From NCBI RefSeq assembly GCF_037392515.1, contig NC_090288.1, positions 11,848,969-11,912,968 of the forward strand: a stretch of DNA of 64,000 bases. The letters are read 5' to 3'. The translations under genes and the position numbers were made by a program. Positions 332 through 41,992 of this stretch are shown here, piece after piece; position 1 is the first letter of the stretch; each line of letters begins with the position of its first letter. The notes beneath the pieces are model-generated. The model was not told the origin of the DNA, did not search any database, and saw only the letters and a program-made list of their open reading frames with translations. The DNA comes from Haliotis asinina. Its lineage: Eukaryota > Mollusca > Gastropoda > Lepetellida > Haliotidae.

Positions 332-958
332 GTTTGTTTTAGAGATGCCATCTTCTCGCTTCCTTCTCGGATGCTGCTCGGAATCTATTACAACTTAGCA
401 CCGGTAAGTTTATATCCAATATCAGTAACTAAAAAGGTATCAGTCGATGCTGCAGACTTTGCGCGTAGATTCACAAACTACTGAGCAAAGGGTGATTAAA
501 ACTAAAGAAATACATGCTCACATCTGCTCACTATTGAGCACAATGAAATCGATGCTCCTGCTCTTGATCACTGGCTTGTCTTGTCCAGACTTCATTATTT
601 ACAGACTGCCGACATGTAGTTAGAATATTGATAAACCAAATTTTATGAAATAAGTCACCAGTAAGATTATCTAGTTTACTGGAAATGAGTGAAAACGTAT
701 TGAATACCCAAAGGAACCTATCGATTGTCATTTGTGAATGATTACTTGTCACTAAGTACTAAATGTCCCCAAAATAATCTGGAGGCATATTGATATACAC
801 TATATAGAGTAATACGATGAAGGGAACACATGGATATGTTACAGGTAAAGGGATGCAGGATTAGCGGCTTGGTGAAGGCGTTTTCGGAGCATGTGTTGTA
901 TAATCTGAATATTCAACAAACAGGACCACTGGTGAGTCCTTCAGCGGAAGTAAAGAGG

Positions 959-1036
<78 letters not shown>

Positions 1037-4000
1037 ACGCGTGCGTGCGTGTGAGCGTGCGTACATGTGTGTGTGTGGATACCTCGGGAGACACCATGCA
1101 CTTTGACCATTATGGCCAAGTATACTACTAAAATATTTAAATGGATACATGAGTAAGTTTAGTTTATCAATATTCCAGCAATACCTCAACTGGGGACAAG
1201 TGTGACTGACCACATTATTTTATCTAGATAAAACGAGGACTAGTGGCTGTGCTGTCGGTATAATGTTCCCCAGTGTTGTACCAATGTTAAACCGTGCCAT
1301 TGTAGCTCGGAGGCCGGACACTACAAAACCCAACTAGTCCATGAGGTTCTTGAAAGGCATTTAATAGTTAGATGAACATGACACGTTTAAATGGACAACA
1401 ACTTATTTCTATTCTTTTGTACGACGTTTCAGAGCTAATTCTTGGTCCTTCGAAGTCGCATGAATAGAAGTTGTAATCCAAAAATGCGTCATGTATTCAG
1501 GCCATTGACATCCACGTGGGTGCATTATGAGTGACATATTCTTGTACGCGTTGTTAAACCCTGTTTGAACTTAACATTTGCAGTATTCACATCTTTGCCT
1601 GAATGTATAGTCATGTAATCCATCTTTTTTCTGTTCAGCCCGAGAAACTCAGGGTGACATTCCTCGTCAGAAGTACGAAAATGCGGCGGATCGTAAACCA
1701 GGAAGAAGTAAGTTCAGTTCATTAAGACCACTTCCATGACACTGTAGTACACTCATCACTTCTTCCAAACTCATCACTTTGTACATACTCATCACTTCAC
1801 CCAAACTCATCACTTCATCCAAACACACCACGTCATCCAAACTCATCACTTCTACCAAGTTCATCACTTTGTCCATACTCATCACTTCATCCATACTTAT
1901 TAGTTCTTTAGTACTCATCACTTCACCCATATTTAATTCTTGAGTGAGAATAGTTTACGCCTCTTATAGCAATATTCCTGCAATATGACGACGGGGGACC
2001 CAGGAAATCAACTTCACACATTCTACTCATATGGGGAATAGTACCCCCGTCTTCGGTGTGACGGGCGAACGATTTAACCACCACGCGTATACGTCATCTG
2101 ACATATTCCCCCGTATATAATATATTATCACATTACCGTTTATGTAGATGTAGCATTATGATGTTTATATTTATATTTTATATTTTACCACATTTTAATA
2201 TTTTATTCCCATTCTTTTAAGCTATTTTCCGGCTTAAAACGACTCTCAGACTTGGATGTACAAATGGTGGATTTCAATAGGTATGCATTGATTGAACCGT
2301 TACATTCGTCACCCCCTTTCCGAAACCTCGAAGAAGAGCTTCGTGCCCAACTCGTGTTATTCCGGAATCTGCCGAATAGCGCGGCTTCTTGGAGGTTACG
2401 GAAAGGGTCGAGTGGTGATGAATGGAAGAGACTGTCCGGGAATAACACGATTGTGGTTGTTAGATTCTGGTTTTAGTCTTAAATGTTTACAATTTCGACT
2501 ATATCAAATGGTACCAAACAATGCATTATAAGTTTAGAGCTTGTGCGCTATTGGGGTAAAGGGAAAGAAATCCTAAATCAGCTAATTTCTGGCGACATAT
2601 TTGTTGAAAGACATGGCTGCAATACGTAATGTAAATCTTTGTTGTAAAATATTCAAGAAAAGCACATCTTGTATGCCCACGTTAAATAAAATGTTCTATA
2701 ACATCAAAACATTTTAACGATGTGGTAGCGAAAAGTATTCTTATCTTGAATGCTGTGCGTTGCAGATCAGTACCTTTCACAGACCAGCTGCAGGTAGGTT
2801 TTCTTTGAGTATTAAGTAAGGAAAACCTTATGAACCCTGTTATTGGAACTTGGAGTGAGTGAGTTTAGTTTTACGCCGCACTCAACAATATTCCTGACAT
2901 ATGGCTGTGGGCTGTGAATAATGAAGTCTGGACCAGGCAGTCCAGTTGTCAACAGCATGAGCATCGATCTGCGTAATTTGGAACCGGTGACATGTGGTTT
3001 TATGAACACCAGACCAATTAGTTTAGATTTTAGTCTTAAATACCTGCCATCATAGATTATTTTGATAAAAATTCAGTGATCAACAGCATAAGCCAACAGC
3101 ATGAGCATCGATCTGCGCAAGTGGGAACCGATGTGCGAGCCTGACCACCCGATTCCGTTAGTCGCCTATTACGACAAGTACGGTCGCCTTTTATGGCAAG
3201 CATGGGTTGCTGAAGACCTATTCTAACCCGGGTCTTCACGGGTCAGGAACTTGGAAGGTAGTACAGGTATTACTTCTTTGTAAAGGTACACGAAACTTAT
3301 CGATTTAAAAATGTCATGTCGTCATTGGGGAATAGTACCCGATCGTCTTTATTTCGCTAACCCTTATTACTTATAGATTATTCACAACACTGACCTGTTC
3401 ATTGGCCTCCACGGCGCTGGACTGACGTACATGCTCTACCTACCAGACTGGGCAACCGTCTTTGAAATGTAAGCATGCTGGGTTGAGATTAACGTATGCT
3501 GGACGAAACTCGTTAAGGATATATGCAAACTTTGAAAATGTTAATAATGATCTATCTACCCACTGACATACTGAGAAAATATCAATAAAAAAAATACCAA
3601 TATCCCTCACTTATTTTTTCCAATATATTTGCTTGTTGCCTTCCTGTGTTACGGGAACCCTCGGTGGGACAGAATAGGCTCAACTTTTCGCTATCATCTT
3701 AACTTATCATCATTGTTTGAAGCACAAACATTAACTTTCGAAACATACAATTGACGGCGTTACGTAGAGATTTCGTATGAAAACGTTTTGTTTGTTGTTT
3801 AGTCCTGCTCTCAGCAATACTCCAGCTATCTGACGACGGTCTGTAAATAGTCGACCAGAAAATCCGGTGATAAACAGCATGTGCATCGATTTACGCATTT
3901 GAGATACAGTGACATTAACTGTGAGGGTATCTGACTTTCTTGATCATATTTAACAAACCTGTTCCAAACCAAAGAATGTTTATTCAGTGACCACAACCTA

Positions 4001-6314: not shown

Positions 6315-6360
6315 GTGGTAGTTACTGAGTGACTACTTTGTGAGAGACTACCTTGCATGT

Positions 6361-6402
6361 GTGTGAGCGTGCGCGTGCGTGCGTGTGTGTGACAGGGAGA
6401 CG
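6361..6402. repeat. GT/GC-rich alternating purine-pyrimidine tract
   Basis: GTGTGAGCGTGCGCGTGCG followed by more GT, just after the stop codon of the upstream EOGT-like gene and inside its presumed 3' UTR. Such alternating tracts can adopt Z-DNA. Confidence 0.6.
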
Positions 6403-6645
6403 TGAAGCAAGTTTGCAAGTGCCTACTTGATTGGTGGGTGGGTGAGCTTTAGGTGGTAAGCTAGAGAGTGACTACTTTGGAAGGGAACCTTTTAATCTGT
6501 TACATCTTCTATAACAAAGTAACTGTTTCTTTCTCTGAATAATTAGCAAGTGTAAACTGATTTCTGATTGTACAGGGGCAACGACCCATAACACCAAACT
6601 GAATTGAATATGTACATATCTTCTTAAAGGTTTGTCGATTTCTAG

Positions 6646-6651
6646 AATAAA
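6646..6651 (+). terminator. Candidate poly(A) signal AATAAA for the upstream EOGT-like gene
   Basis: First AATAAA after the TAA stop at 6312-6314, which would give a 3' UTR of about 350 bp. A second AATAAA at 7398-7403, followed by GTCCCTGTG, would give about 1.1 kb. The sequence alone cannot say which is used. Confidence 0.35.
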
Positions 6652-7397: not shown

Positions 7398-7403
7398 AAT
7401 AAA
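7398..7403 (+). terminator. Alternative poly(A) signal AATAAA, upstream EOGT-like gene
   Basis: AATAAAGGTCCCTGTGAAC; hexamer followed by a weak G/T-rich element. It is an alternative to the signal at 6646. Confidence 0.3.
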
Positions 7404-7829
7404 GGTCCCTGTGAACAAGAAATCCTTGTTTCATGGAAAGCCTTAGTTATAAAGCTGTCACCATAGCAACATGTCCACTAAATACATCGGAGTAGGAGAC
7501 AAAACGCCGAGCCGATGGCGCTAGTGGGAATCCTGTCCGATGTCTCGATGAGAACTCGCTCTATAGATCTAGGTCTTGACTGGAGGTACTGTTTACCCTC
7601 AGACAAAATCTGTTTTATTCATGGTGACCACCATAACTAACGTTTGAAATTTGAGGTTGCGCGTGATAAGTCTCGTAGACATATTAATTATATGAGCTGT
7701 TACGTGTTTATTTTCAAAGTGAAACTAAAAATTAAAAAGTTCGCCGTTAGGTATCCGAAAATAGCACGGCATGAAACCAACAAACATCAAAGAATTTGAT
7801 TTAATAATAGTTTTTATTCTATAATTAAC

Positions 7830-22350: not shown

Positions 22351-23196
22351 TTTTCGAAGCTCTTTTCTTATCTTTTCTAAGATAGTCGTATGTTAATGTT
22401 AATGAATGGCACTTATGATTTTCGAGGCTCTCATAGCGCTCAGATAGTCGTACATTAATGTTAATGAATGGCACTTATGATTTTCGAGGCTCTCTTAGCG
22501 CTCAGATAGTCGTACATTAATGTTAATGCATGGCACTTATGATTTTCGAGGCTCTCTTAGCGCTCAGATAGTCGTACATTAATGTTAATGAATGGCACTT
22601 ATGATTTTCGAGGCTCTCTTAGCGCTCAGATAGTCGTACATTAATGTTAATGAATGGCACTTATGATTTTCTAGGCTCTCTTAGCGCTCAGATAGTCGTA
22701 CATTAATGTTAATGAATGGCACTTATGATTTTCGAGGCTCTCTTAGCGCTCAGATAGTCGTACATTAATGTTAATGAGTGGCACTTATGATTTTCGAGGC
22801 TCTCTTAGCGCTCAGATAGTCGTACATTAATGTTAATGAGTGGCACTTATGATTTTCGAGGCTCTCTTAGCGCTCAGATAGTCGTACATTAATGTTAATG
22901 AATGGCACTTATGATTTTCGAGGCTCTCTTAGCGCTCAGATAGTCGTACATTAATGTTAATGAGTGGCACTTATGATTTTCGAGGCTCTCTTAGCGCTCA
23001 GATAGTCGTACATTAATGTTAATGAATGGCACTTATGATTTTCGAGGCTCTCTTAGCGCTCAGATAGTCGTACATTAATGTTAATGAGTGGCACTTATGA
23101 TTTTCGAGGCTCTCTTAGCGCTCAGATAGTCGTACATTAATGTTAATGAATGGCACTTACGACTATCTTAGCGCTAAGAGAACTTTGAAACTCTGG
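22351..23196. repeat. 62-bp satellite, ~13 units, closed by an inverted half-unit
   Basis: The unit GATTTTCGAGGCTCTCTTAG + CGCTCAGATAGTCGTACATT + AATGTTAATGAATGGCACTTAT repeats with a strict 62-bp period; CAGATAGTCG recurs at 22441, 22503, 22565 and so on to 23123. Units differ mainly at AATGAATGG/AATGAGTGG. The left unit is diverged (22351-22400). At the right edge TACGACTATCTTAGCGCTAA (23159 on) is an inverted copy of the unit's own AGATAGTCGTA block, followed by GAGAACTTTGAAACTC, the inverse of the unit's start. This suggests an array grown from the end of an inverted-repeat transposon. Confidence 0.93.
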
Positions 23197-24146: not shown

Positions 24147-27100
24147 ATGCTGGGAAAATGCAGGAATGCTCAGCTACTTCCACTGGTGGCGTTTGCAGCA
24201 GTACTGGTGGCAGCAGGTGGTGCCAGTGACTGGGGGGACCTGAGACTCCCTAGGGAACATGTGCCTTACTTCTTCAGGAATAACCCAGACATCGCACAGA
24301 AGTGCCAAGATGATGATGCATGTCCTTATAAGGTATGGAGAATAAGCGCAGCAACCATGTGTTTGATAAATTATGCAGGAGTTTATTAACACGATTAAGG
24401 GTTCCAAAAGTGAGTGAGTATGATTTTATGCTGCTTTAAAGTTTAAGCAATACTTCAGATGTGTCACGGCAGGGCACCAGATATGGGCAGTGCACAGGTT
24501 ACTCATATGAGGAATCAAACTCTGGTCTTTGGTGTGATAGGCAACCACTTTTACCACTGGGCTACTACACCTCCCCAAGGTTCTAAATTAAGAGGCCATG
24601 ACTTCCAGAGTTTTAATGAAAATATTTCAAAATTTAGTTATATTTACATTTCTAATTTTGTTCAGCTTCAAGGGTAATATTGTACACCAAGGCATTTTAT
24701 CTTTTTACAGAACTCCACTGTACACAGGTCCAGTGAACTTTCAAAATCCATTTGATTTCACTTGACCACAATTAACAATTTGGTTTCTTTTGCAAATAGT
24801 CTATATCAATTATAAACAACAAACAATTGCATTTATATTCCATCATCAAAATACATATATCAAAACATTTCAGTAGTTTAGCCAGTGCCACGTTAAAGTT
24901 AAATCTGGATATTTACTTGACCAACACAAAAATTCCACTTGACCCCGGCATCAGGCAATGGTATTTTTCAACCCCCTTTTAAACCTTATCCGATTGAAGT
25001 CTCTTCCTCTGTACTGATGATCTGAAGTGGGAAGGGGAGCTGTGAGCTCTAATTAAAAGTGAAGTACACAAAACGGAGATGTCTTGTACACCGGCCACTC
25101 ACCAAGTCAGTACATCTGTACATCCATACATCCTCTGCTATTCTGGTTAACAAGGTTCAGAGATGTCAGTGATTGAACAAAGTTAAAACATACATACAAC
25201 AAAAAACACAACTTTGTAGCTTTTGTACGTTTTGGTATGGACTTACAGTAACAAATTATCACAAATGAAAATTCTGCTTAAAGTTGAAAAATGATGTGAT
25301 GAAAAAAATCCTTTGAAGTCAGAGTTCAAAAGATTCACTGAAAAACCTACCTGGGGTGAAAAGTGGTAATCTTGGCTGTGTGCACAAACAACATATAGTA
25401 AATAATCCATTTGCTGCCTAAAAAAATCCTTGTTGCTAATGACAACATGCAATGCACAACGTCAATCATTGACCACATGCAATTTGAACTTAACACCAGT
25501 CAGGCTATACACCATAAACAAAGAGCCCTGAGCGTATCAGCAAATGAACCAGCCAGTGAAATTCTTTGTCACACTTAAGTGCAATCCCACCCGCTCTGAC
25601 TAGTTCAGGAACCCGGGTGCTTCATTTTGAGGGTAGGAAATCCAAGTACAAAATATTGCACCTTTGATGTATAATTGTGCACTTCTAATTTTGTTTGTTT
25701 GTGTTTTCATAATCAGCAGTGTATATTATGTGTCATGAATGAATGATAATTGTGTTTTATATTTATGTTTATTTTGTTGATTACACCTAAGCTTTAATTT
25801 TGTTTGCTTACAACTTTCAACACAAGTCACTCTCTCTGTTTTTCAGGCTGAAACACAATCGAAGCGTTGCTGGGGTTTCGAGAAATCATGTCCAGAGAAG
25901 CAGAGGATGAGCATGCCTCGATGCAACAGCAAGGAGAGGTGAGTAACCATGGTAACCTTAAATATGTATCCATCAAATTAGAATGTACTTTAGGATATGA
26001 TTAGTATGAAACAAAATATGCAAGGGGCAGTCTGACAAAAACGATGAGGTAGTCATGGATTTTTAAGAAAATCCTGTTCTTAGAAAGAATATACAAATAA
26101 TATGTTTCAAGTCTTTATTTGAGACATCACGATACACAGCCCTTTTCCATGTACTGCTAAGTCTCAAGTGTCAATATGAGATACACAATCTCAAGTTAAT
26201 ATACACGATGTACTGATTTAGCATGCTAGGAGATAGCATTTTGAAATTTGTCACAGTTTGTCATAACATTGCTGCACTGCAATTCTATTGGCAGTACAGT
26301 GTTCAGAGATGTACACTTTTCACTGAAAACTAATGAAGAGTGATTTTGATTATAAATACAATCTCACATTTTGAAAAATATCTTATAGATACAGAAATAG
26401 TTTCATAGAGGATACTTTGTATATGTGTCTAATGGTTTACCAAAATATATATTTTAAAAAAAGATTTCTTTATATGGGGCCCTTTTTCTTAGGGGTCTGA
26501 GGCCCTTTCGACTTTTTGATGTGGCCATTTTGACCTTTGTATGCGGCCCTTTACACTGGGGTTTTGAGGCCCTTTTAACTTTCTCGCTGCCTTTTGCCTT
26601 CTCCATTTTTGGGCCTGTTATTCATGTGGTCATTTTGACCTGCTCCCTTTATGATGTACATGACATACTGCCCTATTTCCCACATTTAGTCGATATATAT
26701 GATATACTCCAGAAGGATAAGCAGTGAGGAGACGAACCTGGAGATATTCTGGAAGCAGGCAGACTTTGGATTGGTGAAGGAGAGGCGTGGGGAATTCAAG
26801 TACTACTGCAAGCCTAATCACAAAGTAAGCATTTGGTGCTCAAGATGAAATAAATTAATTTAGTTTCCTTTGGTCAGACCAATTCTGTTTCCTGTTTTAA
26901 AGACAGGAGGGGAAAAAATGAAAAATAAAAATCACTGGTCAAAATACTTTTCCTTTTTAATACTAAAAAGTGTGTTATTTTTGGTAATTTATGAAGTTTA
27001 TATGGGGCTAAAAGTAAAACTTTTTTTGTAAACTGACATTTTTTATCAATAAAAACATGAGGATTTTAATTTTGGGGCATGGAAAATTAATTTTATTTTT

Positions 27101-30100
27101 TCCTATTCTTGAAAAAATTCAACCAGCGGATCCATAGAACTAGAAATAGAATTGTGTGGCATTTACTAGAAAACCTGTGAAGATCCAGGTTCAAATGGGT
27201 CTTCAGCAACACATGCTTGTTTGTAGGAATCCAGTCAGTCCACTTGGCCAATTTTTTTAGACCAGGGTTTTGTTCGTCAAAGCAATGTTAGTGCTACAAC
27301 TGTTGTAGGTCTGTATTAGAGCATGGTAGTCTCAATCGCCGGAACATTTGGGTCACTTTGTGCAAGTGTACCTGCACAGTTGCAACAGTTTGCAAGGTAC
27401 CTATTCTTGTGTTCAGGTATTTTGTACACCATCATCACGCCAAACCCACTCCCTCTCCTGCCATAAATCATGAACTGTCCCGTAGGTGTCATTAAGGTGT
27501 AACAAGCAGATTATTATTAAAGGTCACATGCAACCAAAAAATCAAACAATTAAAACACAGTTATCATTTATTTGTGATGTATAAAATGCATAGCTGATTA
27601 AGAAAATGCAAATAAACAGAATTATATACGTATAATGGCAAATCAAAAGTGATAACAATCCCAGTTGGAGCCAGTATGTGTGCATTCAAGTGTAACAAAG
27701 CTTTTTCATTGACCAGTAGTTCATTTGCCGATACACTTAACCGGCTCTTTTATGACTTATAAGCCCAATAGGTGTTAATTTCAAATTGCATGTGGTCAGT
27801 GATTGAAGTTGTGCATTGCATATTGTCATAAGCAGACAGGCAGACATATAGGTGTCAGTAAACCAGACACTGAGTTTTCTCTGTGACAGAGTCTGCTTAT
27901 CACAATCAACATGTTTTTTTATGTAACAAGAAGATCATTTACTTGTTTGTGTGCACAGCCAACATTAGACAACTTTTCACAACCTCCACTACTGAGTCTA
28001 ACAAAACCTTATGGGAGGTCGCGTCAGGTAACCTTTGAGATTGACCAGTCAGAACACAGCTTACCAAATCGCGAAAGTGCACATTCGCACATACCTTTTG
28101 AACTTTTTATCTCGATAAGGTTCGTACCCGAACGATTCCGCCTGCTATTTAGCGTACACACGTTTCTGGGTGATGCACACAGTGTACGTACAACCATGAC
28201 AACTGTGAGTAAACAGTCGCTGAAAATAGTGTTTTTGGCAATATTCAAGGATGTCAGCTTGCAAAAATGTCAGGTAATGGTAACCATGTCAACAGAAAAC
28301 CCAAAGCGTATATACTGCAGGTCAAATAACTGTGTTATATGCAGATTTTTGTTTGTGAAGAGATCTGTGTCAGTGACCTGAATATTTTGAAAGTCCCTCC
28401 GATCCCTAAATGGTAGACGTTGTCTGATTGGTTAAATCTATTTAATCATCTCGCATTTGATTGGACGGTCATTGGTCCCTCAAAGGTTACCTGACACAAC
28501 CTTCTACTAGGTTTTGTTAGACTCCGTGGTGGAGTGTTAAGAAATACACTGAGACTAAGTTTACTTAGACTGAAGCTCAGCGAACCTTTTCAATGCACAT
28601 GTGTAATGCGCACAACGCAGGATAGCTGTTCAAACCACTTTTTCCCCCACTGCTGGGGAAAATCAGTGAATCGTTTGAACTCTGATTTCACTGGCTTTTT
28701 TATCGCGTTTTTTTTTTAGGTTGAATTTGCACTTTTGATGTTTTGTTTCAGTAAGTGCATACCAAAAGGTGTCAGAATCTGCAGAGTTGTGATTTATGTT
28801 TCATGTGACCTTTAAGTGTTTTGAAAGTAGTTGAATGTACATTGTCTGGTGATGTAATGGTTGTCCATGTTGTACAGGACGACTCCTCCCTGCGCTGCGT
28901 GGACCACATACGGTACTGCCACGCCACCAACGTCTACTTGGACTTCCGCAGTGCCAACATGAAGCAGAGCAACAACAGGTCAGACTTTAATCACAGATGC
29001 AAAACACTTATCACTGTTTGTTTTGTGGGGAAGGTAATCAGTGTTGAAATGACAACCCACTCTTTCAGATTATCATCAGAATTCATCAGGAAGTACATGT
29101 TGATGTTTTTTTGTTTTTTTATGTGATGTACCGTAAAACTAGATAAGACCTAAATACAGTCAGTGTTTGTTTCATCGGTAGTTTCAAAAATTCAGCCAAA
29201 GAGGAGTAGGGGGCAATTTTTACACAATTTTAAGAGGGTCATATGGATGGGGTTTCTTTGCCCCCCTGCCACATTGCTTGTAGTAAATGACCAGTCACTT
29301 AATCAACAATAATTACCACACAAAACCAAAAATCAGTTGATGACACACTGTAGACTTATTAATTGACACAAAATTAGAAGGGGTAGTCAGACGTTTATTG
29401 TCGACATTGCTGAACAACTGCTATATTTAGATGTATACTTAGTGCCAGTCATTTAATTTGTAAATAGCTCAAAGATACTGTTACAAACATCCCCTGTAAA
29501 TGTTTATGAAACACTTGTGACCCATTTTAGTGATCACTTACCAAGATAAAATAATAAGTTTTCCTCTTCCCAATCGTGAATGCACCCACCCACTCACCTG
29601 TGAGCCCCACAGTGGGTAGATTAGATGTTAGCGGATTGGGTTCCCAGGTAGTAAACTTGGACTCCTCCAAATACCCTGATTCCTAAATGTTTTTGATGGT
29701 TAGTGAACTGTGTCTATCGATGATGATGCTGTTATTAGCTTTAAGAAAATGTGATTGACTGCTTGGTCATTTGGTCACTGCGGCGATTATTTCAGTTAAC
29801 TGGAACACCACTAGTAATGAGGTCATGTGTTTTCAGGTACCGTGAGGATCTCCTAGACTATGGCAAGATTGGAGGTCACTGTACGCTGGATAAGGCCTCT
29901 CTAGCCAGACAGGGTGACCACAAGAGTCCACTCCAGTCATGGTGAGATGGGAATCAGTGCAATATTTAAACTATGTCACTTTATTCACATTTACATGGTT
30001 AAAATAACTTAGGGAAACATTTGTGTTCCTTTTTGATAATTTCATTGTGTAACCAATGTTTTATCTTTTTGGATTCGAATCCACATTCTCGGAGTGAGGC

Positions 30101-33100
30101 ACTTAAACACCAGTGCACAAAGTCACATTGAGACCCACATTCTCAGAGTGAGGCACTTAAACACCAGTGCACAAAGTCACATTGAGACCCACATTCTCGG
30201 AGTGAGGCACTTAAACACCAGGGCACAAAGTCACATTGAGACCCACATTCTCAGAGTGAGGCACTTAAACACCAGTGCACAAAGTCACATTGAGACCCAC
30301 ATTCTCGGAGTGAGGCACTTAAACACCAGGGCACAAAGTCACATTGAGACCCACATTCTCAGAGTGAGGCACTTAAACACCAGTGCACAAAGTCACATTG
30401 AGACCCACATTCTCGGAGTGAGGCACTTAAACACCAGTGCACAAAGTCACATTGAGACCCACATTCTCAGTGTGAGGCACTTAAACACCAGTGCACAAAG
30501 TCACATTGAGACCCACATTCTCGGAGTGAGGCACTTAAACACCAGTGCACAAAGTCACATTGAGACCCACATTCTCGGAGTGAGGCACTTAAACACCAGT
30601 GCACAAAGTCACATTGAGACCCACATTCTCAGAGTGAGGCACTTAAACACCAGTGCACAAAGTCACATTGAGACCCACATTCTCAGAGTGAGGCACTTAA
30701 ACACCAGTGCACAAAGTCACACTGAGACCCACATTCTCAGAGTGAGGCACTTAAACACCAGGGCACAAAGTCACATTGAGACCCACATTCTCAGAGTGAG
30801 GCACTTAAACACCAGTGCACAAAGTCACATTGAGACCCACATTCTCAGAGTGAGGCACTTAAACACCAGTGCACAAAGTCACATTGAGACCCACATTCTC
30901 AGAGTGAGGCACTTAAACACCAGTGCACAAAGTCACACTGAGACCCACATTCTCGGAGTATGGAAGTTGTGGTGGGTTAGGGACCATTCATAATTTACGG
31001 CTAGGGGTGGTGATGATGATATTTATGGTGTTGTATGTACAATGTGAATGGACAACCCCCTCACTGAAGTGAAGTCCCCCAAACCCACCCCCGCTGCTTG
31101 TCATCTGTAAATTCAATGAACATCTGTACAAATTTGATGAATCACCCCACCTTCCCAGAACAAAACGGGTGACCCCCTTTAAAATCATCACCACCACCCT
31201 AGCCATAAATTATGAATGGTCCCTAACCCACCACAACTTACATACTCTGAGAATGTGGGGCTCAATGTGTGGGTTAGAATCCCAGATTTGTATTTTACTT
31301 TAGAATGTGTAATCTCAGATATAATATATGTTCCATTTGACTATTTTCTAAATGATGTTGTGTATTCATAAGTTAAATGTATAAATTATATTCAGATTTC
31401 AGTAGCATTCAGAATATTCAATATTATGGTTCAAGATATCAGAACTGTGATGCACACATTGCACTTAACAATCTAATGAGACAAGGTTTTAAAATAGGAA
31501 GAAGTAAGGCATTAACAGAGTGTAATTAATTACTTCCATCCTGTGTGTCGTGTTTCAGGTATGCAGAGTTCGAACATTTCACTTCATTAGAGTCACAACC
31601 TTTGACCTCAGGTGTTTGTGACATCATCATCGAAAAACCAACCTACCTCATTAAACTTGATGCTGGTGAGTTACCTCCCCTTGTCCAAAAGCCCTTGGTT
31701 ACTTCTATGCAGTTTGCATTGGTACGATGGCCAACAGTGGCCACAGCTGTTCTCCTTCTGCTGACCAGAACAGCAAAATATGAAGCTGGAACCACTCTCT
31801 TGATTTTTAGAGAAACTGTCAGCGTTAACGTACTAACATATCATATCAGTGCAACATGTCAAGATAGCATTTCAGTATAGCATTTCAATATTGTGTGTCA
31901 ATATAACATATCAGTAGGTATCATGTCAATACAAAATGTCAAAATAACACATCAATATGACATTAACAGTCCCAAGCTCAGCAAAGGCAAATATACCCAA
32001 ATCTCACAGGCTACTGTGATCATTTTGTATTCTCTGTACTGGTTTTGAGTATTTAGCTCAACTGACCAAATAAGACTGACACAAAATGTAAACATTTTCA
32101 TCTCATTCGGGTATCATTATCAACATATCATCAGGACAAGTAAAGTAAGATTTCCACCGGTCCTTAGAATTTCAGTTATCACTCATTTGATAGCACACAA
32201 CTTTTGTTGGGGTACCTTCAGGGCGGATACAGCTCTTTGAGAAAGGGGGTAAACTGTTGAGAAAAGGGTGGTGCACACTTCATTTTCACTCGAGTTTCAA
32301 TGGTGATGTCACAAAATTCCAGGACAAAAGGTGGGGTTTTGGGTTGCATCCCTCCTATGGATCCACCTGTGGTATACATACAATCATGCAAGTTTGTGTC
32401 CTTTCTGGTGGTGTGATACACTGACATTTGTTATGAATTGTTTTCAGGAGTGAATATGTTCCATCATTTCTGCGACTATGTGAACCTTTACCTCAGCCAA
32501 CACTTCAACAACTCCTTCTCCACCGACGTCAACATCGTCATGTGGGATACGGTCAGTAGACATGTCACCAATATGATGACGTGTGGTCACATTTGCATTC
32601 TCAAATCAGTTAAGCAGTGTTGTTGTTCACAGACGTTTGTTTGTAGGTTAATGCCACACTCAGCAATGTTCCAGTTATGTGACAGTGTACTGAAAGGAAT
32701 CAAGTCTGGACCAGACAATCCAGTAAGCAACATCAGGAGCCTCAATCTGCGCAATCGAGACACAAAGTGAACCAGACCACCCAATCCCCATTATTGATGA
32801 TTAAGATTGACATGCAGAAGGCCATTTCTAACCCAGATCACTGGTTATATAACAAAGCGCTGAGCAATTCTTCAGGTGTGATGGAGGTCTGTAAATAGTC
32901 ATAATGAGTATCGTCCACCGCAATCATGATGCCATGACATGCGTCGACCAAATCGGCGAGCCTGACCACGTGGTTCTGTTAGTCGCCTCTTCTGACAAGC
33001 AAGGGTCCAAATTCCCTGTACTATGGTACTTCTTGCAAGTAACAAACATCACTTATTGTGTGTTTATTGTTTAACACCACTCACATCAATCTTCTGGCTA

Positions 33101-36100
33101 TACGACATTCAGAGTTTGAAACAGACATCTGGGGCTGACCAATTTGTGCTCGGCCAGACAATTATATTTTTCAGCAGGCTTGCAGTTTATTTTATGTAAA
33201 TCGTGACAGAGAGTTTGTTTTGTAAAATAGGATCCGGCTTCTCATTAATCTGTACTACGCTTGCTAATGATTCAAACTGACGGTAAACTTATCGTTTACA
33301 CATGCAATGTGGAGCAGAGTTACGAGACCTGTGTAGATGCACTCTGTGCAGTGCAGTAGTTACCAATTTCAATTGGTGCACTGCTTTTGCTATGTTCAAT
33401 GTCCAGTTATTTTCATTTTGTATTTTTATTTGTTGCAGAGTGGCTTCCATTATGGAGACTTCTTCAGCGCCACGTGGAAAGCTTTTTCAGATTATCCCAT
33501 TATTCCTCTCCGTCAATACGAAGGCAAAAGGGTAGGTGGACATTCGGAACCTTTCTATTCACAAAACAGATCACAGACAGGTCTTATTTGTCTTTTAATG
33601 TTTGATAATTAATGATATTCACCTGGGATAACAAATACTGACTGCTCCTTTGTAAAGCACATTGCCGTTGGACAGAACAATGGGGCGCAATTTGCTGCTT
33701 TTGTTACTTGCACTGGTGCAACCCAGTGTTACAGATTGTGACCTAGTTATGAGTCAAAGATGCTCCAATGTTTTTTTCATAAATAATTCAACAATAAATG
33801 GAACATAAGGATAAGTATGTCCGCTCATTTTTGTTCTAGACTTTGAATAGCTATGGGGCTGAAACATTGCTATTTATAGACATGTCTCGGCTATGACAGC
33901 TCTTTTTAACAGCTTCTCTGTGTTGCTATGGTTTCATGGGTACTACATCACGAAAATAATAGTGTGCACGAAACGTCGAATTTGGAATTTGACTCGTTCA
34001 ACTAGATTTTATCTTAGGTTGCACATGTTACAAGTAGGTTAATATCTTTTAAATCAAGACCGACAATAGAATATGTACAAATATCTAAAAGTGAGGTGGC
34101 CAGTAGGGTAGCCTTGTAGTTAAGGTGTTTGCTCGTCACACCTAAGACCCAGGTTCAAATCCATAGGTTGAGTAGTGAATGCTATTTCTGGTATCACCTT
34201 CCTTGATAGTGTTGGAATATTGCTTATCGTGATGAAACTCCAACAGGCTTACTCAGTGTAATACACACATTTTTCTTTATTTAAAGGTATGTTTTAAGGA
34301 AGCAATTTTCTCCTTTCTGGCAAGAACGAGGTTGGGGCTATACTACAATATGCCACTGGTGAGTTTTTGCTACATTTTGCAGTGAAGTATTCTTAAAATT
34401 GTTACTTGTCATTTCTTGGTTTCCATGTGAGACTACAACTGAAAAATAATTGTGTTCAAGTTTCATTTGTGTTGGTAAATATTTAATGTAGCTTTGGCTT
34501 TGAGTGTTGCATCATACAGTCAGCAAGCAAAACAAAATTGATAGGATCTTGTTTGTGATAGTAATTTTCAAAACGTTTATGCGAAACACATCCAGGGATG
34601 ATGCCCAACTTTCAACATATTTCAATGAAAGTTATGCCATATTCAGCAAATATCAACAGAGCATGATGAACTGTCAATTTTATTATGCAGGTGAATGGAT
34701 GCGAGGGAAGTGGACTGATCCGAGCGTTCTCGCAGCACACGATCCACAGACTGGAGGTCCCTCAGGAGGGGCCACTGGTGAGACTGACCTAGATAATGAT
34801 TTCCCACCCTAAATAACTTATTCATTTACTGCAATTTTGATCAAACCCCCATATCTTCAGACATGTGTGGTTCTTAATAAAAAATCCCCATAATTGTTGC
34901 TTCCCAATTGGCTAAATGGGAGGTTGCATGTATACTCATTTGCTTGTTTGTTGTCTAGGCTTGACAAAAGGCACCATGATGAATGTGGAATGACCACTGC
35001 ATTTGGTTGCACTGAGCAATATTCCAGCTTCATGGCGACGGTCTGTAAATTATCAAGTCTAGACCAAACAATCTAGTGATCAGTAACATGAACATCGATC
35101 TGTGCAGTTGGAAACCGATAACGTGTCAGCCAAGCCAGCGAACCTGATCACCCAATCTTATTAGTCACCTCTAACGACAAGCATGGGTGACTGAAGACCA
35201 GTTCTAACCCATGTGAATTTGTAAATTTCTAACTGCTGCAGTAAAACAAGTCTGTAACAACGTGTGATGCACAATTAAAGCAGAGATCACAACAGAAATT
35301 TTTCGATAGGGGTTTAAATAATTATAAAATCATTTCTGTTCTTATCATGTGAGTCGTCTGTGAGGTTTTCAAGGTTTGAAGGTTATTGACAGCTAGCTAC
35401 AGTGAACTTAGGGGTAGCCTAGTGGCTAAAGTGTTACCTCATCATGTTGAAGTTCGGGTTTGATTCCCAAAGTGGGTGCAATGTGTGAAGACTATTTCTG
35501 GTGTCCCGGCATCATGATATTGGTGGAATATTGCTAAAAGTGGCATAAAACCATATTCACTCACTACGGTGAACCATCAGTATTTTATCATGGGGAATTA
35601 GTTCCTTCTACTTTCAGATAAAGTACATTTCCATCAATTCTCCTGCGTAATCCTTGTTACAGATTATGTGTATTTTACCCATAAATACCTAACTTACAGT
35701 TTTGATGGAAAAAACACATTTCTGAATGGCGAGTGAATTCATGATGCAGATTTAACAGCCGCAGTCATGAGAAAATGGCATCCTCATGGTATTGCAGCAT
35801 GTTCTGTCGGACTGAGGAGCTCTGTGACAATAGTGTTCTGTTTGTATTGCAGAGGGACAAAGTACGAGTGACTGTGCTGGCACGGAACACCAAGTACCGG
35901 AACATCATGAACCAAGATGAGGTAATCACCTTGACCTTGTGCATCAAGGCTTTCGCAACCTTTGTACGAAACAAGCTTAGCAATAAGACTTCCTTAAGTC
36001 AGTGTTAAGGTATGCAAGCTACAATCACCTAGTGCTAAGATCATTTTGAACAATGCCACCCGGATCATTTTTGGTCATCCGTCACAATCCTGGAGAAACA

Positions 36101-39100
36101 AATCGTATGTTGATGTCTCTGACTTGATCCACATTATAGTTGATTTGAATTTCTCTATATTTCTGCTGCATGACTTTGTGTTGCCACATATTACTTCTTA
36201 AAATGTATGCTCAGAATTTCTCGCTCAGAGTTAACAAAATCATGGTATCACTAGGGCTGCAAATACATTGGAATATAGTAATTCTGATACCTGTGTTCCA
36301 ATCTGTATTGCAATATGCTGAAAGTCTCCATGAGTGGTATCGTGCGCGAGTGAGTTTAGTTTTACGCCTCAGCATCATGAGCATCGATCTGTGTACTTGG
36401 GAACCAATGTCAACCAAGTTAGCAAGTCTGACCACCCGATGCCATCAGTTGCCAGAGTGTCATAGATTGGACAGGCAAAGCCAACCAAAGCCCTAGGAAA
36501 TAAATGTCATGGTTGTGGTTACAGGTATTTCAAATTTAGATATTTAGGGATAGTATTTGCATTTTTAGAAAATTGATTGTATGTAAAGTATGCTGTTTTG
36601 TCATTAAACTACATCGGAAAACTTTGGTATGAGTGAGAGTCTATAGATAATCTTAAAACTTTATACAAACTTGTTAAAGAGTCATTGACAGATGAAATAA
36701 AAATATTTTATATGAAGGTAAGATAGTGACCGTTTCGCAACCTGCCAACTGTTGGCATCAAAGATCAGTCAGAAATTCCAGCATTGCATTCTAAAGGTGT
36801 GAACAACTACACCATCCAGTTGATATTATCACCTTTTGAATGTGCCACCTTTCATGTTGGCACTTCATGAAAAGTTGTGAGCTGTGTCACTTTGTGAGAT
36901 CACTGCCATGTTTAGAAGGTGAGATGAATTCAGTGTGCAAACTAGCCACCGGCCTGCTAGCCTGTGGCTAGTCAAAATCCAGTGGGCCCATTGAATCTCC
37001 AGAGTCACTGGCCTGACAGGATCAGGACTAATGGGATCAGGTGGCCAGGTTTGCTGACTGGGTTGACATGTCATCATATAACAGTTGCGTAGATCAGTGG
37101 TCATGCTGGTGATCCCTAGATTGTCTGGTCCAGATTATTAGCTGACTGATGTCATATAACTGGAATATTGCTGAGTGTGGCATAAAACAACTGCTCTTTA
37201 GAAAAGAGCAAATGTATACATATGCATGGCTCTTGCGCTCCCCCACGATCAATCTCACTCACTTCCATGCATGAGTGCAGAATTGCAATCTCTACAACTA
37301 GCAAACAAGGATAAGTTTGACCTGTGCAGAGAATGTGTTTATGAGAAGTAGATAGTGCACTGCAATGAGCAAACCCATTTGGTTTTGTGAAAGGTAGAGC
37401 AGATGTAGTCTTGTGCATATGCTGTGCATGACAATGAAATAAACTTTCTTGGTCGTAAGACTCACATGGTCACCATAGCACAACACTTGATTGACAACTT
37501 TGGACCCTTTCACTCACAATGGGAAGCACCGGTGTGCAGCACTCTTACATGCTAATAAGGGTCAATAGTCAGGTCTATGCAGAACTTATCCTTGTTTGTC
37601 AGTAGTAGGATCAGATTGGAGCTTGTGATTGAATAGCTTATTATGCTCCATCTGTTTGTACGCATGAATTGGAATATTTTAAGAACTATTGAATCTTTTC
37701 ATTCTGGTCATGTTTTATGTAGGAAGATGAAATGTCTGAAGGAAACCAGCTTATATCCGATGATGCTGACAAAATGATGACCTTATTTCATGAACATGTT
37801 AATGGTTGCTGTTTTTCTGTTTCAGCTGGTTTCGGCTCTAAAAACAGTTGGTGAATTTGAGGTGAATCTGGTTGTGTTCAACAAGTAAGTGTCACCTGTG
37901 CACCATGTTCTTGACATGTTTCAGATTGTTGTCAAGTTTCAATTTGATAGAACACTATAGTGTGGTGGTTAGAGTGTCCACACAGGTTCGATTCTTGGCC
38001 ATATGGTACTTGTTGATCCCTATCTGGTGCTATCTGGTAGAGACATTTGAACTTAGATAAATTTTGTGGAATTTGTCTCTGTTGATAGTAAAATAGGGGA
38101 TTAAGTCGATTCACTTTTCAACAAAAACTGCTCAACAGAATTGATTAAGCTTATTCATGCGTTTCAGTGGTACGCAAGAGGTGTGCATCTCCCTGTTGCA
38201 TAGATGTTTTTTTTAACTTGTTAAGTAGAAATTAATCACCAGAGCACCCTCAATGTTGGGGAACACTTCCTGCAGCAGCAGGGGCATCCATGTCCTCAAT
38301 GTTGGGGAACACTTCCTGCAAAAGCGGTGACGTAACTGTCCCTAGACACAATTTTGTCTTTATGTTGTAGTCCTCCATCTGATGTCATGATGATGTTTGA
38401 TGTCCTGATGATGTCATCATTGCTTGGCTGTTGCCAGTGGATACCAAATTGTGATTTGAAATTCGCTCAGTTTTTGAATGGTTAAGTAACTAGTTGGGGA
38501 TTTCTTTCCAATGCTATTGATGCTTAATTTTTGGTTTTAGATTCTAAACTGTTTTTGAAGAGTAAATTATGAGTGAAACTCATTCCAGATAAATACTGAT
38601 TTACAAATCTTAAGACACCTCTTGATTTTTCTTTTGGCATATCAGAATACGGACTTTAAACATTTGGTTTATGATAAGAATTGTGACAGTCTGATTAATG
38701 ATGTTTTTCCAAAGATAAAACTTGAATTGTGGAATGAAAGTATTTTGATGAACAAATTAAAAATGTGTATCTGTATTGTGTATGTGCCAGGGTAATAAAC
38801 GTGATATTTCTTATATCTGTACTTAAGAATCCAAATTGAAAGTTTCTTAATGATTTTACATATCTGCTTGATGTTCTGTGTGTTGATTTGAACTTGCTTA
38901 TTGTTTAATATGCAATTTTGGCAGCCATTTTGTAGTGTTTTATTTTGGATACTGCTTGAAGTGAGCGTTGTTGACTCTGGCTTACTCAGCTTGGATCAAG
39001 TTAGCCGTGTTTGTTAGAAACGTCATTACCTCAAATTAATCAAATTTATGATCAACCTGTCGGATGTACCATAGGCTTCTCTAACATTCCTGGAGAATTG

Positions 39101-41992
39101 TGTCCACAGTATGTGGAGACAAGCCTGTCCGGTCATTCATTGTAACTGTTGAAGAGATGGTCTTGGAACATTGGAGTCAATGTCTGCTAGTTACATGACA
39201 GTATGTGAGAGCAATCTGTTGATATTGTCCGTATCTATTTCAGGGACATGCCATTTTTAGATCAGCTCAAGGTGAGTATCACCATGGTTACAGCAAAGAC
39301 AAAAATTACCTGGTGTGAGCATGTATGTTAAGGTGTAAAATATCAGATGGTACGTAGTTACTGTAATCATGAATGTCAGGTTGCAAAACATCAAATGTTA
39401 CGTTGTATAATTGAGGATGTCAGGGTGTAAAATACTTGATGTTTTGTTGTATAATCGTAGATGTCAGGGCATAAAATACCAGATGTTACATTCTATAATC
39501 ATGGATGTCAGGGCGTAAAACATCAAATGTTACGTTGTATGATAGTGCATGTTAAGGTGTAAACAAATTTACAATAAAAAAGTAAAATCGTCTTAATCGT
39601 CTTTTTCACCGTTACAGATATCATTTTATATATCTGCAGATCTCCCATAACAGTGATATCTTTATTGGCATGCATGGTGCTGGACTAACACATCTGCTGT
39701 TCCAACCGGACTGGGCAGTAGTGTTTGAAATGTGAGTACTGATCAATTCTAATATTATAGGAGCAACGGTAGCCTAGTAGTTAAAGCATTACTGAAGACC
39801 CTTTCATTGAAGACCCATGTTTTATCCCTCATATGAGCACAGTGTGTGAAGTCCATTTCTGATGTCAAACGCTGTGATGTTGCTTGAATATTGCTAAAAG
39901 AGGTGTATAACCACACTTGCTCACTCACTCACTCACTCACTCACTCACTCACTCACTCACTCACTCACTCACTCACTCGTAAGTCCCAGCTCACCCACTC
40001 TTATGGTCTGGTCTGGTTAGGGGGCATTGGTTAAAGCATTCACTTGTCATGTCAAAGACCCAGGTTCGATTCCCAACATGAGTGCAATATGTGAAGCCCA
40101 TTTCTGGTGTCCCTGTCGTGATATTTGCTGGAATATTCATTCTCTCTTTCTGTATTCCTGACAGCTACAACTGTGAGGACCCGCGCTGCTACTACGACTT
40201 GGCCCGTCTCCGCGGGATCAAATACCTCACCTGGGAGAGAAAAGACAAACTGGACCAGGAGGACGAGGTCAGTGGTCACTGAAGGATGAGCTGTATTTTT
40301 GTTACACCATAAGCAGGATTTAGATGAGGAACATTGAGGAAACAATCTTGGGAAAATAGGTATAAGGATTTTGTTCTAAATATACAGAAATCTGTTCTAT
40401 TTATGGAAGAAAAAAGTCTTACACAATTTATATTTGTATGCTTCCCTTGAGGGTAATACAGTCTGAAGATAACACTGCTACAAAAAGCCATACATCACAC
40501 CATATTACCTGAGGTAGAAGCATATAACATATTTATCTTACCTCCAGTGTTCAAAATTTATTTTTAAGAATACCACTGCCTATATGACTTGTAAACAAAC
40601 AAACAAAAATATTTTGACAAGCTTAAAACTGCAATATAAATGATTACTTATATTTGAGTGGGCAAACGATTCAGTGTATAAAATAATTTACATAAAACCA
40701 TAAAATAAATGTCTACATAGTGAACTCAAAAAAAGATAATCAAACGTTTTTTTAACTCTGGACACTGCATAAGTCATATTATGATGTCATGCGATACAGC
40801 TTCTTGGCAAAGAGTTTGGTGGTTACCATGGTAGCGGTAATAATTTTTCCAGTTGTAACCGTCAATGGAGGGTTGTTTGGAAACCAGTGAAATTAAAGTA
40901 TTTTATGAGAAGGAAAGATAAAATATGTTATCATTTGAAGACAATCTTTAAAATATGAAAAGGATTTCATCTTTTTGAATGTTCATATTTTTGGGGACAC
41001 AGTGTACAGGGGTGGATACACGTTTTTGAGAAAGGAGGAGTGCACAGTTCATTTTCACCCATTTTCACAAGTGTTTCAGTGTTTCAGTGGTCATTTAATG
41101 AACTTTCAGGACAAAGGGGGTGTGTGGATGGTGGATGTATGTGTGTGTAGTGGTGTGGTGTATTACGAACCCCTGCGCACAGGCCATAGCAAAATGGTGG
41201 GCGAGCTGGTGGGGACATGGTGGGCGAGCTGGCTAAAGTGACAGGCTAGTGATCCAGCTTGGTTGAGGTTTCGGGATCGAGCCTACCTGTGACCGGGTGT
41301 AAAAACCTAGGAGTCAACTTTGTGTGCATACTCTTTCAGTGTTGTCACAACCCCTAGTGTACAGTACACAACCCTGTGCACTTAAAAGAACCCACGAATC
41401 CGTTGGTATATGACCAGATGGTGGCCACATGAACACGTGCATACACCTAGTTGCGGGTACAGCAACGTGCAGTAAACTTGGACAAAGTGCTGTGACTATG
41501 TGTCACAGTCCACCCAGCTGTGAATTGGGTACCTCGTTAGGATATGAGAGCCACAATATACTTGGTGCGCCTAGTGGCAACAAGAGTTGTATACTCCCTA
41601 GGGAGTTGAGATTGAAGTATGATGTGCTGTTGAGATTGACATCCAGTGATCGAGAGAAAAATTCCAGCACCTTGAGCATGCACTAGTGCATGGATAAGTG
41701 CGCTATATAAATATCCCATATCTATATCTAAAATTATTCAAGGTCAGTGTCTATGGTGTTTTTCATGACATTTTACATAACATTTTACATGGTGTTTATT
41801 GATGATGTTTTTCTCTAGGGTCATCATCCAACGCTAGGAGCACATGCCAAATTCACCAATTATGGTTTCGACGTCAATGAATTTCTGCGTCTAGTATTTC
41901 AAGGAGCAAAACATGTGAAGTCCCATCCCAGCTATATCACAGCACATAGAGAAAAATATGGTGGAAATTCCAAATCCAAAGATGAGTTATAG
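24147..41992 (+). CDS. EOGT: EGF domain-specific O-linked GlcNAc transferase (EOGT), 16 coding exons
   Basis: EOGT adds single O-linked GlcNAc to Ser/Thr of EGF repeats (Notch and matrix proteins) in the ER lumen, from UDP-GlcNAc. Coding exons: 24147-24332, 25847-25938, 26713-26824, 28878-28978, 29837-29941, 31559-31665, 32448-32551, 33439-33531, 34287-34358, 34691-34777, 35853-35921, 37826-37884, 39244-39271, 39640-39731, 40165-40267, 41819-41992 (TAG). They sum to 1,584 nt = 527 residues plus stop, the length I recall for human EOGT. Residues 1-27 are a signal peptide (MLGKCRNAQ, then [16 protein letters not shown]). The glycosyltransferase-61-type domain spans roughly 200-490, with [10 protein letters not shown] (exon 7), [17 protein letters not shown] (exon 14) and [16 protein letters not shown] (exon 15). 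KDEL at 524-527 is the ER-retrieval signal. The D-Y-P at 287-289 aligns with the DYD I recall in vertebrates. The ATG follows a good acceptor (TTCACAG) at 24146, so a 5' UTR exon may lie upstream. Confidence 0.95.
24409..24582 (-). repeat. SINE-A, minus orientation, in EOGT intron 1
   Basis: AGTGAGTGAGTATGATTTTA tail, CAATACTTCAG, then TGAGGAATCAAACTCTGG (B box complement) and ACCACTGGGCTAC (A box complement). It is full length but diverged. Confidence 0.75.
25220..25575 (-). mobile_element. Partial copy of the intron-3 foldback element (EOGT intron 1)
   Basis: Reverse-complement similarity to 27521-28811: TTGACCACATGCAATTTGAA with AACACC (25470 on) mirrors AATTGCATGTGGTCAGTGATT near 27786, and AAGTCAGAGTTCAAAAGATTCA mirrors the GTTTGAACTCTGATTTCAC at about 28675. 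The terminal AGGTCACATG ends are not visible, so it is truncated. Confidence 0.65.
26475..26660. repeat. Degenerate GGCCCTTTT / GTGGCCATTTTGACC repeat
   Basis: Five or six loose copies of GAGGCCCTTTT and GTGGCCATTTTGACCT, just upstream of EOGT exon 3 (26713). The + strand 68-codon ORF here is made by the repeat. Confidence 0.6.
27521..28811. mobile_element. 1.29-kb foldback DNA element flanked by TTAA, in EOGT intron 3
   Basis: AGGTCACATG at 27521-27530 is mirrored by CATGTGACCT at 28802-28811, and both ends are flanked by TTAA (27517-27520, 28812-28815). Inside, a second inverted pair is long: GAGTCTAACAAAACC...TCAGGTAACCTTTG (about 27990-28037) against CAAAGGTTACCTGA...GGTTTTGTTAGACTC (about 28480-28533). 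TTAA duplication is the piggyBac-type pattern. No transposase is encoded; the 156-codon ORF 27911-28381 shows no domain I know and reads across the arm. Related pieces lie at 25220-25575 and 44085-44215. Confidence 0.8.
30073..30960 (+). repeat. 54-bp minisatellite, ~16 units, open reading frame through the array
   Basis: The unit AGTGAGGCACTTAAACACCA + GTGCACAAAGTCACATTGAG + ACCCACATTCTCGG repeats every 54 bp. Because 54 is divisible by 3 and the unit has no stop in this frame, a 299-codon ORF runs 30094-30993 as an 18-residue repeat ([18 protein letters not shown]). Variants: CAGTGC/CAGGGC, CTCGG/CTCAG, ATTGAG/ACTGAG. It lies in EOGT intron 5 (29942-31558). The last unit merges into the terminal repeat of the MITE at 30945-31260. 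I do not regard the ORF as a gene. Confidence 0.95.
30945..31260. mobile_element. MITE with ~77-bp terminal inverted repeats, EOGT intron 5
   Basis: GAAGTTGTGGTGGGTTAGGG + ACCATTCATAATTTACGGCT (30963 on) is mirrored by AGCCATAAATTATGAATGGT + CCCTAACCCACCACAACTTA (31201 on), extending outward through ACATTCTC(A/G)GAGTATG. The core holds CCCCC-rich sequence. A relative lies at 45955-46212, and an end fragment at about 27460-27490 (GCCATAAATCATGAACTGTCC). Confidence 0.9.
32205..32345. repeat. Dispersed repeat, pair with 40990-41150
   Basis: TTTGAGAAAG(G)GGGT, AAAGGGTGGTGCACACTTCA, TTTTCACTCG and AGGACAAAAGGTGGGG recur, diverged, as TTTTGAGAAAGGAGG, AGTGCACAGTTCATTTTCAC and AGGACAAAGGGGG at 40990-41150. 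Both are in EOGT introns (6 and 15). Confidence 0.6.
32640..32850 (-). repeat. SINE-B, minus orientation, EOGT intron 7
   Basis: ATGCCACACTCAGCAATGTTC tail side, GTCTGGACCAGACAATCCAG, CATCAGGAGCCTCAATCTGC, then a diverged head (AACCCAGATCACTGG). Confidence 0.75.
32885..33010 (-). repeat. SINE-B fragment, minus orientation
   Basis: GGAGGTCTGTAAATAGTC, then GGCGAGCCTGACCACGTGG and TTAGTCGCCTCTTCTGACAA. It is internally deleted; it follows the previous copy by about 35 bp. Confidence 0.65.
34097..34255 (+). repeat. SINE-A, EOGT intron 8
   Basis: AGGGTAGCCTTGTAGTTAAG (A box), GACCCAGGTTCAAATCC (B box), CTATTTCTGGTATCACC and GTTGGAATATTGCTTATCG. It ends about 30 bp before the acceptor of exon 9 (34287). 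Confidence 0.8.
35010..35215 (-). repeat. SINE-B, minus orientation, EOGT intron 10
   Basis: CACTGAGCAATATTCCAGC, GACGGTCTGTAAATTATC, ACATGAACATCGATCTGTGC, CAAGCCAGCGAACCTGATC and GACAAGCATGGGTGACTGAAG. It covers almost the whole body. Confidence 0.85.
35408..35575 (+). repeat. SINE-A, full length, EOGT intron 10
   Basis: GGGGTAGCCTAGTGGCTAAAG (A box), TCGGGTTTGATTCCC (B box), GACTATTTCTGGTGTCCC, GGAATATTGCTAAAAGTGGC, ATAAAACCATATTCACTCAC. It is a good reference copy for the family. Confidence 0.9.
36348..36455 (-). repeat. SINE-B fragment, minus orientation, EOGT intron 11
   Basis: GAGTGAGTTTAGTTTTACGCC tail joined directly to AGCATCATGAGCATCGATCTG, so about 90 bp of the body is deleted. 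CAGTTGCCAGAGTGTC marks a diverged head. Confidence 0.75.
37025..37195 (+). repeat. SINE-B, EOGT intron 11
   Basis: GCTGACTGGGTTGACATGTC, CATGCTGGTGATCCC, ATTGTCTGGTCCAGATTATT and CTGGAATATTGCTGAGTGTG then GCATAAAAC. The head is missing and the ACTC tail is lost. Confidence 0.8.
38055..38215. repeat. Dispersed repeat, copy of part of 52780-53420 (EOGT intron 12)
   Basis: GATAAATTTTGTGGAATTTG, GGGGATTAAGTCGATTC, CTCAACAGAATTGATTAAGC and GTTGCATAGATGTTT all recur in the same order at 53222-53375. It is an interspersed element rather than gene sequence. Confidence 0.7.
38248..38320. repeat. 27-bp direct duplication, 46-bp period
   Basis: CCTCAATGTTGGGGAACACT + TCCTGCA occurs at 38248-38274 and again at 38294-38320 without mismatch. 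Likely a recent local duplication. Confidence 0.9.
39325..39560. repeat. Degenerate ~56-bp tandem repeat, EOGT intron 13
   Basis: Four to five units of ATGTCAGGGCGTAAAACATC + AAATGTTACGTTGTATAATC. The array occupies much of the short intron between the 28-nt microexon (39244-39271) and exon 14 (39640). Confidence 0.8.
39762..39918 (+). repeat. SINE-A, EOGT intron 14
   Basis: ACGGTAGCCTAGTAGTTAAAG (A box), CCATGTTTTATCCC (decayed B box), GTCCATTTCTGATGTC and TGAATATTGCTAAAAGAGG, leading into the expanded CACT tail at 39919-39978. Confidence 0.85.
39919..39978. repeat. (CACT)n microsatellite
   Basis: About fifteen pure tetranucleotides. They directly continue the 3' tail of the SINE-A at 39762-39918, so the microsatellite grew from the SINE tail. 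Confidence 0.97.
40017..40138 (+). repeat. SINE-A, truncated, ending 26 bp before EOGT exon 15
   Basis: GGGGCATTGGTTAAAGCATTC (A box), ACCCAGGTTCGATTCCC (good B box), GCCCATTTCTGGTGTCCC and GCTGGAATATT, where it stops. Then CATTCTCTCTTTCTGTATTC and CTGACAG form the polypyrimidine tract and acceptor of exon 15 (40165). The branch point may lie in SINE sequence. The SINE frame is open into exon 15 (a 66-codon ORF), so intron retention would not meet a stop at once. Confidence 0.88.
40990..41150. repeat. Dispersed repeat, pair with 32205-32345
   Basis: Shares GAGAAAGGAGG, GTGCACAGTTCATTTTCACC and AGGACAAAGGGGG with the copy in EOGT intron 7. An internal TGTTTCAG duplication is present. Confidence 0.6.
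41195..41705 (+). repeat. Long tRNA-derived SINE of a third type (SINE-C), EOGT intron 15
   Basis: GCGAGCTGGCTAAAGTG resembles an A box and TTTCGGGATCGAGCC a B box. The roughly 400-bp body ends GATAAGTGCGCTATATAAAT and ATCCCATATCTATATCTA. The 'GCGCTATATAAATATCC' ending is one I recall from marine invertebrate SINEs, though I cannot name its domain. It shares no tail with SINE-A or SINE-B. It ends about 115 bp before the last EOGT exon. Confidence 0.75.

Follow-up and report, generated by a model that had tools for sequence, protein, structure and literature searches.

Three EOGT genes, here called T, U and D, lie in tandem on one strand of the Haliotis asinina genome, in a head-to-tail arrangement. 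The window, i.e., the whole stretch of 64,000 nucleotides that was analysed (C9:11848969-11912968), contains exons 9-16 of U and the whole of D, and a further 50 kb of upstream DNA, which was also examined, contains the remainder of the array. The order and spacing of the genes are T, 5.1 kb, U, 17.8 kb and D. The original prediction had described an old duplication at this site in which both copies were kept. The age of the duplication and the retention of the copies are supported, but the number of copies was wrong, and the reading as a single duplication was dropped once the upstream DNA revealed gene T.

Gene T lies wholly upstream of the window (C9:11817272-11836312), on the same strand as U and D, and has 16 coding exons, which encode a protein of 528 aa with KEEL at its C-terminus. 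Gene U, on the forward strand, has its exons 1-8 upstream of the window, starting from C9:11841391 (-7577 in window numbering), and its exons 9-12 (332-403, 845-931, 1639-1707 and 2222-2280) and 13-16 (2766-2793, 3377-3468, 4147-4249 and 6171-6314) within it, the last of these ending in HREL and a stop codon. A premature stop or a missing core in the 5' exons of U had been named as signs of decay, and neither was found: exons 1-8 are complete and open, and the full protein of 516 aa is stop-free, with introns that are all GT-AG.

Gene D lies entirely within the window (24147..41992, forward strand), with 16 coding exons that encode 527 aa, a KDEL C-terminus and a match to PDB 9wjk at E = 6.7e-203. 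Its exons 1-8 are located at 24147-24332, 25847-25938, 26713-26824, 28878-28978, 29837-29941, 31559-31665, 32448-32551 and 33439-33531, and its exons 9-16 at 34287-34358, 34691-34777, 35853-35921, 37826-37884, 39244-39271, 39640-39731, 40165-40267 and 41819-41992, all on the forward strand. Two minisatellites are also present in this part of the window, one with a 62-bp unit (22380-23159; 12.6 copies, 98% matches) approximately 1 kb before gene D, and the other with a 54-bp unit (30081-30959; 16.3 copies, 97% matches) in intron 5 of D, where a 317-codon open frame that contains the repeat is taken as spurious. Among the 42 ORFs listed in the window, 10 that lie outside the EOGT exons gave no Pfam matches at E 0.1.

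Each of the three genes has 16 coding exons, separated by GT-AG introns and free of internal stops, and the exon phases agree in 16/16 cases across T, U and D. Exons 6, 7 and 9-15 are of equal length in the three copies, and each of exons 1-5, 8 and 16 is longer or shorter by whole codons in one copy or more. The seven exons of 72, 87, 69, 59, 28, 92 and 103 nt that the original prediction had listed are indeed identical in length and phase in U and D, with AG/GT borders. Its "frozen exon structure" is to be expected of related genes that have kept their introns. In all of T, U and D, the start ATG is preceded by AG at a distance of one base, as if a conserved intron of the 5'UTR ended just before the ATG.

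Family assignment and copy number

The sole Pfam family found for the C-terminal part of U and for D is Glyco_transf_61 (PF04577), with scores of 49.8 and 54, respectively, and a gathering cut-off of 27. Among solved proteins, mouse EOGT (PDB 9wjk) stands far ahead of the others as the match to both genes, at 678.1 bits for D and 226.9 bits (E = 2.6e-66) for the C-terminal part of U. POMGNT2, which belongs to the same GT61 superfamily as the EOGT copies, gives a far weaker match, with 45.4 bits (E 9.1e-11) for the C-terminal part of U and 42.5 bits for D. The earlier claim that the upstream and downstream genes are both open and members of the EOGT family is borne out.

The identity of about 55% over 170 residues that had been counted by hand between U and D is close to the BLASTP result, in which the C-terminal part of U and D share 109/206 residues (53%), and this likeness is not a matter of chance, given the E value of 3e-77 and the full agreement of the exon phases. 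Over the full length of the proteins, the identities among the copies are 271/497 for T-U, 300/508 (59.1%) for T-D and 256/496 (51.6%) for U-D, and those to mouse EOGT are 278/481 (58%) for D, 241/481 (50.1%) for T and 215/474 (45.4%) for U.

A search of the whole genome (1.14 Gb) using D listed 41 matches, and 41/41 candidates were scored. Thirty-five of them fall within C9:11817284-11890957, and the remaining six are GT61 genes in long single open frames, which are not of the EOGT type. No EOGT-type exons were found beyond the C9 array among the matches listed in this search, although the absence of further EOGT copies is not absolute, because the search scores the best candidates only. In a stretch of 314 kb, lengthened by another 100 kb at either end, nothing beyond the array matched D at E 0.5 or lower. 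A single match to U in the same stretch, at E 0.25, lies on the other strand and contains a stop, and was taken as chance. D was also searched against viral and prokaryote sequence collections for more EOGT homologues, and this gave no confirmed relative.

In animals, EOGT is generally described as a single gene. Labels such as "EOGT-like" appear in the automatic annotations of several invertebrates. In a literature search with few subscription papers covered, the titles and openings of abstracts that were listed contained no report of tandem EOGT genes. EOGT is included in a clam gene list (PMC9524096), GT61 (1) is entered in the CAZyme table of a land snail (PMC10295696), and one EOGT is given for Tribolium (PMC8024498).

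Eight single-exon GT61 genes (L001-L008) were found in the genome, with PF04577 in L001-L007. Compared with the EOGT copies and mouse EOGT in partial alignments, these seven genes have approximately 21-38% identity, and six of the seven have no His at the position of mouse H248 in the multiple alignment. Four of them (L001, L002, L004 and L007), with 53-83% mutual identity, form a cluster at C3:77656304-77688572 and present Trp at this position, which holds the putative catalytic base in EOGT. L008, a separate single-exon gene on C12, is likely to be the POMGNT2 of this genome. L003 (C9:50000776-50001147 and around) encodes 478 aa from the first Met, with an N-terminus that is hydrophobic by eye, keeps all six of the UDP contacts of EOGT, including H432, in a multiple alignment, and has EOGT as its closest solved structure (E = 1.1e-11). 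As some molluscs carry core xylose, according to PMC8724618, L003 may possibly be a candidate core xylosyltransferase.

Active-site residues and chain features

In mouse EOGT, as described in PMC13123520, UDP is contacted by N245, H248, R372, R377, Q412 and H432, which are invariant in the metazoan EOGTs compared there. N245, R372 and R377 make up the phosphate-binding N-R-R constellation, and H248, which is reported as invariant among GT61 family members, is the putative catalytic base. The mutation of N245, R372, R377, Q412 or H248 abolished or strongly cut the activity of the mouse enzyme, and H432A, which affects a contact with the uridine, lowered its expression (PMC13123520).

The residue numbering was checked by reproducing 20/20 mouse EOGT residues. 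The UDP contacts are kept in full in D (6/6) and T (6/6) and in five of the six positions in U (5/6), with N245, R372, R377, H248 and Q412 being present in all three copies. The exception is the U codon at 3428..3430 (forward strand), which corresponds to mouse His432 and reads TAC, i.e., Tyr (H432Y), at a position that is His in T and D; this is one substitution in one assembly. Given that this contact is not His, U is filed as an EOGT-derived paralogue rather than as a canonical EOGT. D, with 527 aa and a KDEL terminus, resembles the canonical enzyme in all six contacts, whereas U differs from it by H432Y, C453M and seven sequons.

The aligned part of mouse EOGT contains 15 cysteines, all of which are found in D and T, and 14 of which are found in U, where C453 is replaced by Met. 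All three copies retain the disulfide cysteines C135 and C187, W207, the glycosylation site N263 and, among the N-glycan contacts, P234 and S265. Other N-glycan contacts vary: His takes the place of R155 in D, Phe (T) or Leu (U) that of Y236, and Asp that of E313 in both T and U. The second glycosylation sequon of the mouse protein, N354, is missing from all three copies, and the number of N-x-S/T sequons is seven in U, one in T, one in D and three in the mouse chain, the count in U being above that of shuffled sequences at P = 0.013 (one of four proteins tested, uncorrected). The GHHPTLG segment that is common to D and mouse EOGT is lacking in T and U, and the DYD295-297 of mouse EOGT corresponds to DYP in D, DHP in T and KHD in U. 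As read from the sequence, the C-termini of D (KDEL), T (KEEL) and U (HREL) look like ER-retention signals of the HDEL type, and the N-termini are hydrophobic by eye, those of T and U looking like signal peptides. The changes found only in U were not enriched near the UDP contacts in windows of 4, 6, 8 or 10 residues (Fisher P 0.64-0.85), and this absence of clustering gives no statistical indication of a remodelling targeted to the pocket.

The probable explanation of the locus is that two old tandem duplications gave rise to an array of three complete genes of the EOGT family (GT61), with D as the conserved EOGT and T and U as diverged, putative ER paralogues that were retained. D would most likely work in the ER as an ordinary EOGT that attaches O-GlcNAc to EGF repeats. 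T, which keeps every donor residue tested, would probably be active there as a GlcNAc-transferase whose acceptor surface is changed. U may still bind a UDP-sugar in a uridine pocket altered by H432Y. With this contact changed, and with N245, R372, R377 and H248 kept, the consequence may be a different acceptor or donor preference, an altered affinity, or an activity that is reduced or lost.

The last of these outcomes would be realised in full if U were a pseudoenzyme or regulator that resides in the ER, a protein that still folds and is under selection but whose transfer activity was abolished by H432Y and the loss of C453. The report of H432 as invariant in metazoan EOGT and the lower expression of H432A (PMC13123520) are consistent with this, as are the replacement by Met in U of a cysteine found in mouse, D and T, and the deviation of U at 51/209 positions on which mouse, D and T agree, compared with 20/178 for T at positions on which mouse, D and U agree. 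We nevertheless regard it as unlikely, given that the residues critical for activity, N245, R372, R377, Q412 and H248, are all retained in U.

History of the copies and selection

If the array arose by two old tandem duplications, as preferred here, the first would have split D from the ancestor of T and U, and the second would have split T from U. T and U are the preferred sisters in the tree of four proteins, where the grouping T+U | D+mouse is favoured and both alternatives have p-AU values of 0.003-0.004, with branch lengths of 0.64 for U, 0.57 for mouse, 0.41 for T and 0.24 for D. The same topology is still the best when exon 1 is removed, with one alternative at p-AU 0.015. It also ranks first in exons 2-8 alone, where this alternative has p-AU 0.017, and in exons 9-16 alone, where the value of 0.075 is not significant. 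Among 473 gap-free columns, 15 quartet sites support TU|DV, seven support TD|UV and five support TV|UD (V being mouse).

The T/U lineage might also predate the split between molluscs and vertebrates and have been lost in the latter, which would make it a second ancestral EOGT class, an origin that is compatible with the explanation preferred here and that we consider distinctly improbable. The C-terminal part of U is equidistant from D and mouse EOGT (109/203 residues each; 18 vs 18 sites), and it was this comparison that first suggested a pre-bilaterian duplication, but the suggestion is weakened by the full-length distances, which bring U and T nearer to D (51.6% and 59.1%) than to mouse (45.4% and 50.1%). 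Rooting with five of the eight single-exon GT61s as the outgroup (L001, L003, L006, L007 and L008) placed the root on U, rather than on mouse, with 46% support, a result that is treated as unresolved signal or long-branch attraction, and non-reversible rooting did not separate five root positions (AU p 0.25-0.58). An early origin would fit both of these outcomes, but not so readily the tip branch of D, which is much shorter than that of mouse (0.24 vs 0.57), or the close tandem order of the genes, which would favour a local origin. The full-length distances and the short branch of D lean towards local duplication.

Whichever of these origins applies, exon 1 probably has a history of its own in T and U. 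The two copies are 90.9% identical over 143 bp, which comprise most of exon 1 and 19 bases beyond the donor site (T -31634..-31492 and U -7533..-7391 in window numbering, upstream on C9), and their other exons are mostly 44-66% identical, with exons 7 and 14 at 75-76%. At conserved residues, T and U use the same codon in 33/41 cases in exon 1 vs 107/226 elsewhere (Fisher P 7.6e-5), with P = 0.0002 in a permutation that takes the highest value among the exons. In the T-D and U-D pairs exon 1 again ranks highest, but the same permutation gives P 0.37 and 0.44, respectively, which is not significant. It is probable that gene conversion homogenised exon 1 of T and U, which are old copies in other respects; constraint on this exon at the codon level is the alternative, and is less able to explain the shared intron bases. 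Such homogenisation would mislead the dating of the copies.

Selection was estimated by a three-branch codon model, implemented in our own script, over 506 codons, or 450 without exon 1. For U, an omega of 1 was strongly rejected in favour of purifying selection, with a 2 delta lnL of 31.7 over all exons and 35.7 when exon 1 was left out, and the dN/dS near 1 that the original prediction had put forward as a mark of decay is therefore not what U presents; on the T branch it was weakly rejected (2 delta lnL 5.5, or 6.5 without exon 1). The estimates of omega for T, U and D are 0.20, 0.14 and 0.08, respectively, or 0.10, 0.02 and 0.05 without exon 1, values that are only rough and do not prove constraint up to the present, because dS is saturated. 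A single omega fits about equally well (2 delta lnL 3.1, or 2.2 without exon 1; 2 df). In neutral simulations that ran from T to the level of T-U identity, 0/300 were stop-free and the minimum was 4 stops, and GC3 reaches 0.59 in the coding exons of U within the window vs a GC of 0.40 in the introns between them. That T and U are dying copies, i.e., recent pseudogenes with frames that are open by chance, is very hard to credit. The U branch, the longest of the four, and the weak rejection of neutrality on the T branch would speak for it, but 32/32 coding exons of T and U are open and flanked by GT-AG introns, the exons of U stand apart from its introns in composition, omega = 1 is rejected for U, and not one of the neutral runs kept an open frame.

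Possible roles and significance

With T and U read as retained paralogues of a conserved EOGT, a new acceptor or role may be envisaged for U or T, as hinted at by H432Y, the loss of C453 and the extra sequons in U, and by the loss of GHHPTLG in both copies. A broader and rather doubtful proposal is that extracellular modification of the O-GlcNAc type is performed in this animal group by a small enzyme family rather than by one gene. U, its uridine contact rebuilt and its N-glycans numerous, would then be an EOGT-derived transferase with another acceptor or UDP-sugar donor, and T and U may even represent an ancestral animal class that vertebrates have lost.

EOGT acts on Notch receptors, and mutations in EOGT have been linked to Adams-Oliver syndrome (PMC13123520). 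The presence of three intact EOGT copies in one array, one of them without a residue that is reported as invariant, amounts to a natural experiment, which could reveal whether activity depends on H432, whether GT61 enzymes can drift in their choice of acceptor, and whether some animals have diversified the extracellular transfer of O-GlcNAc.
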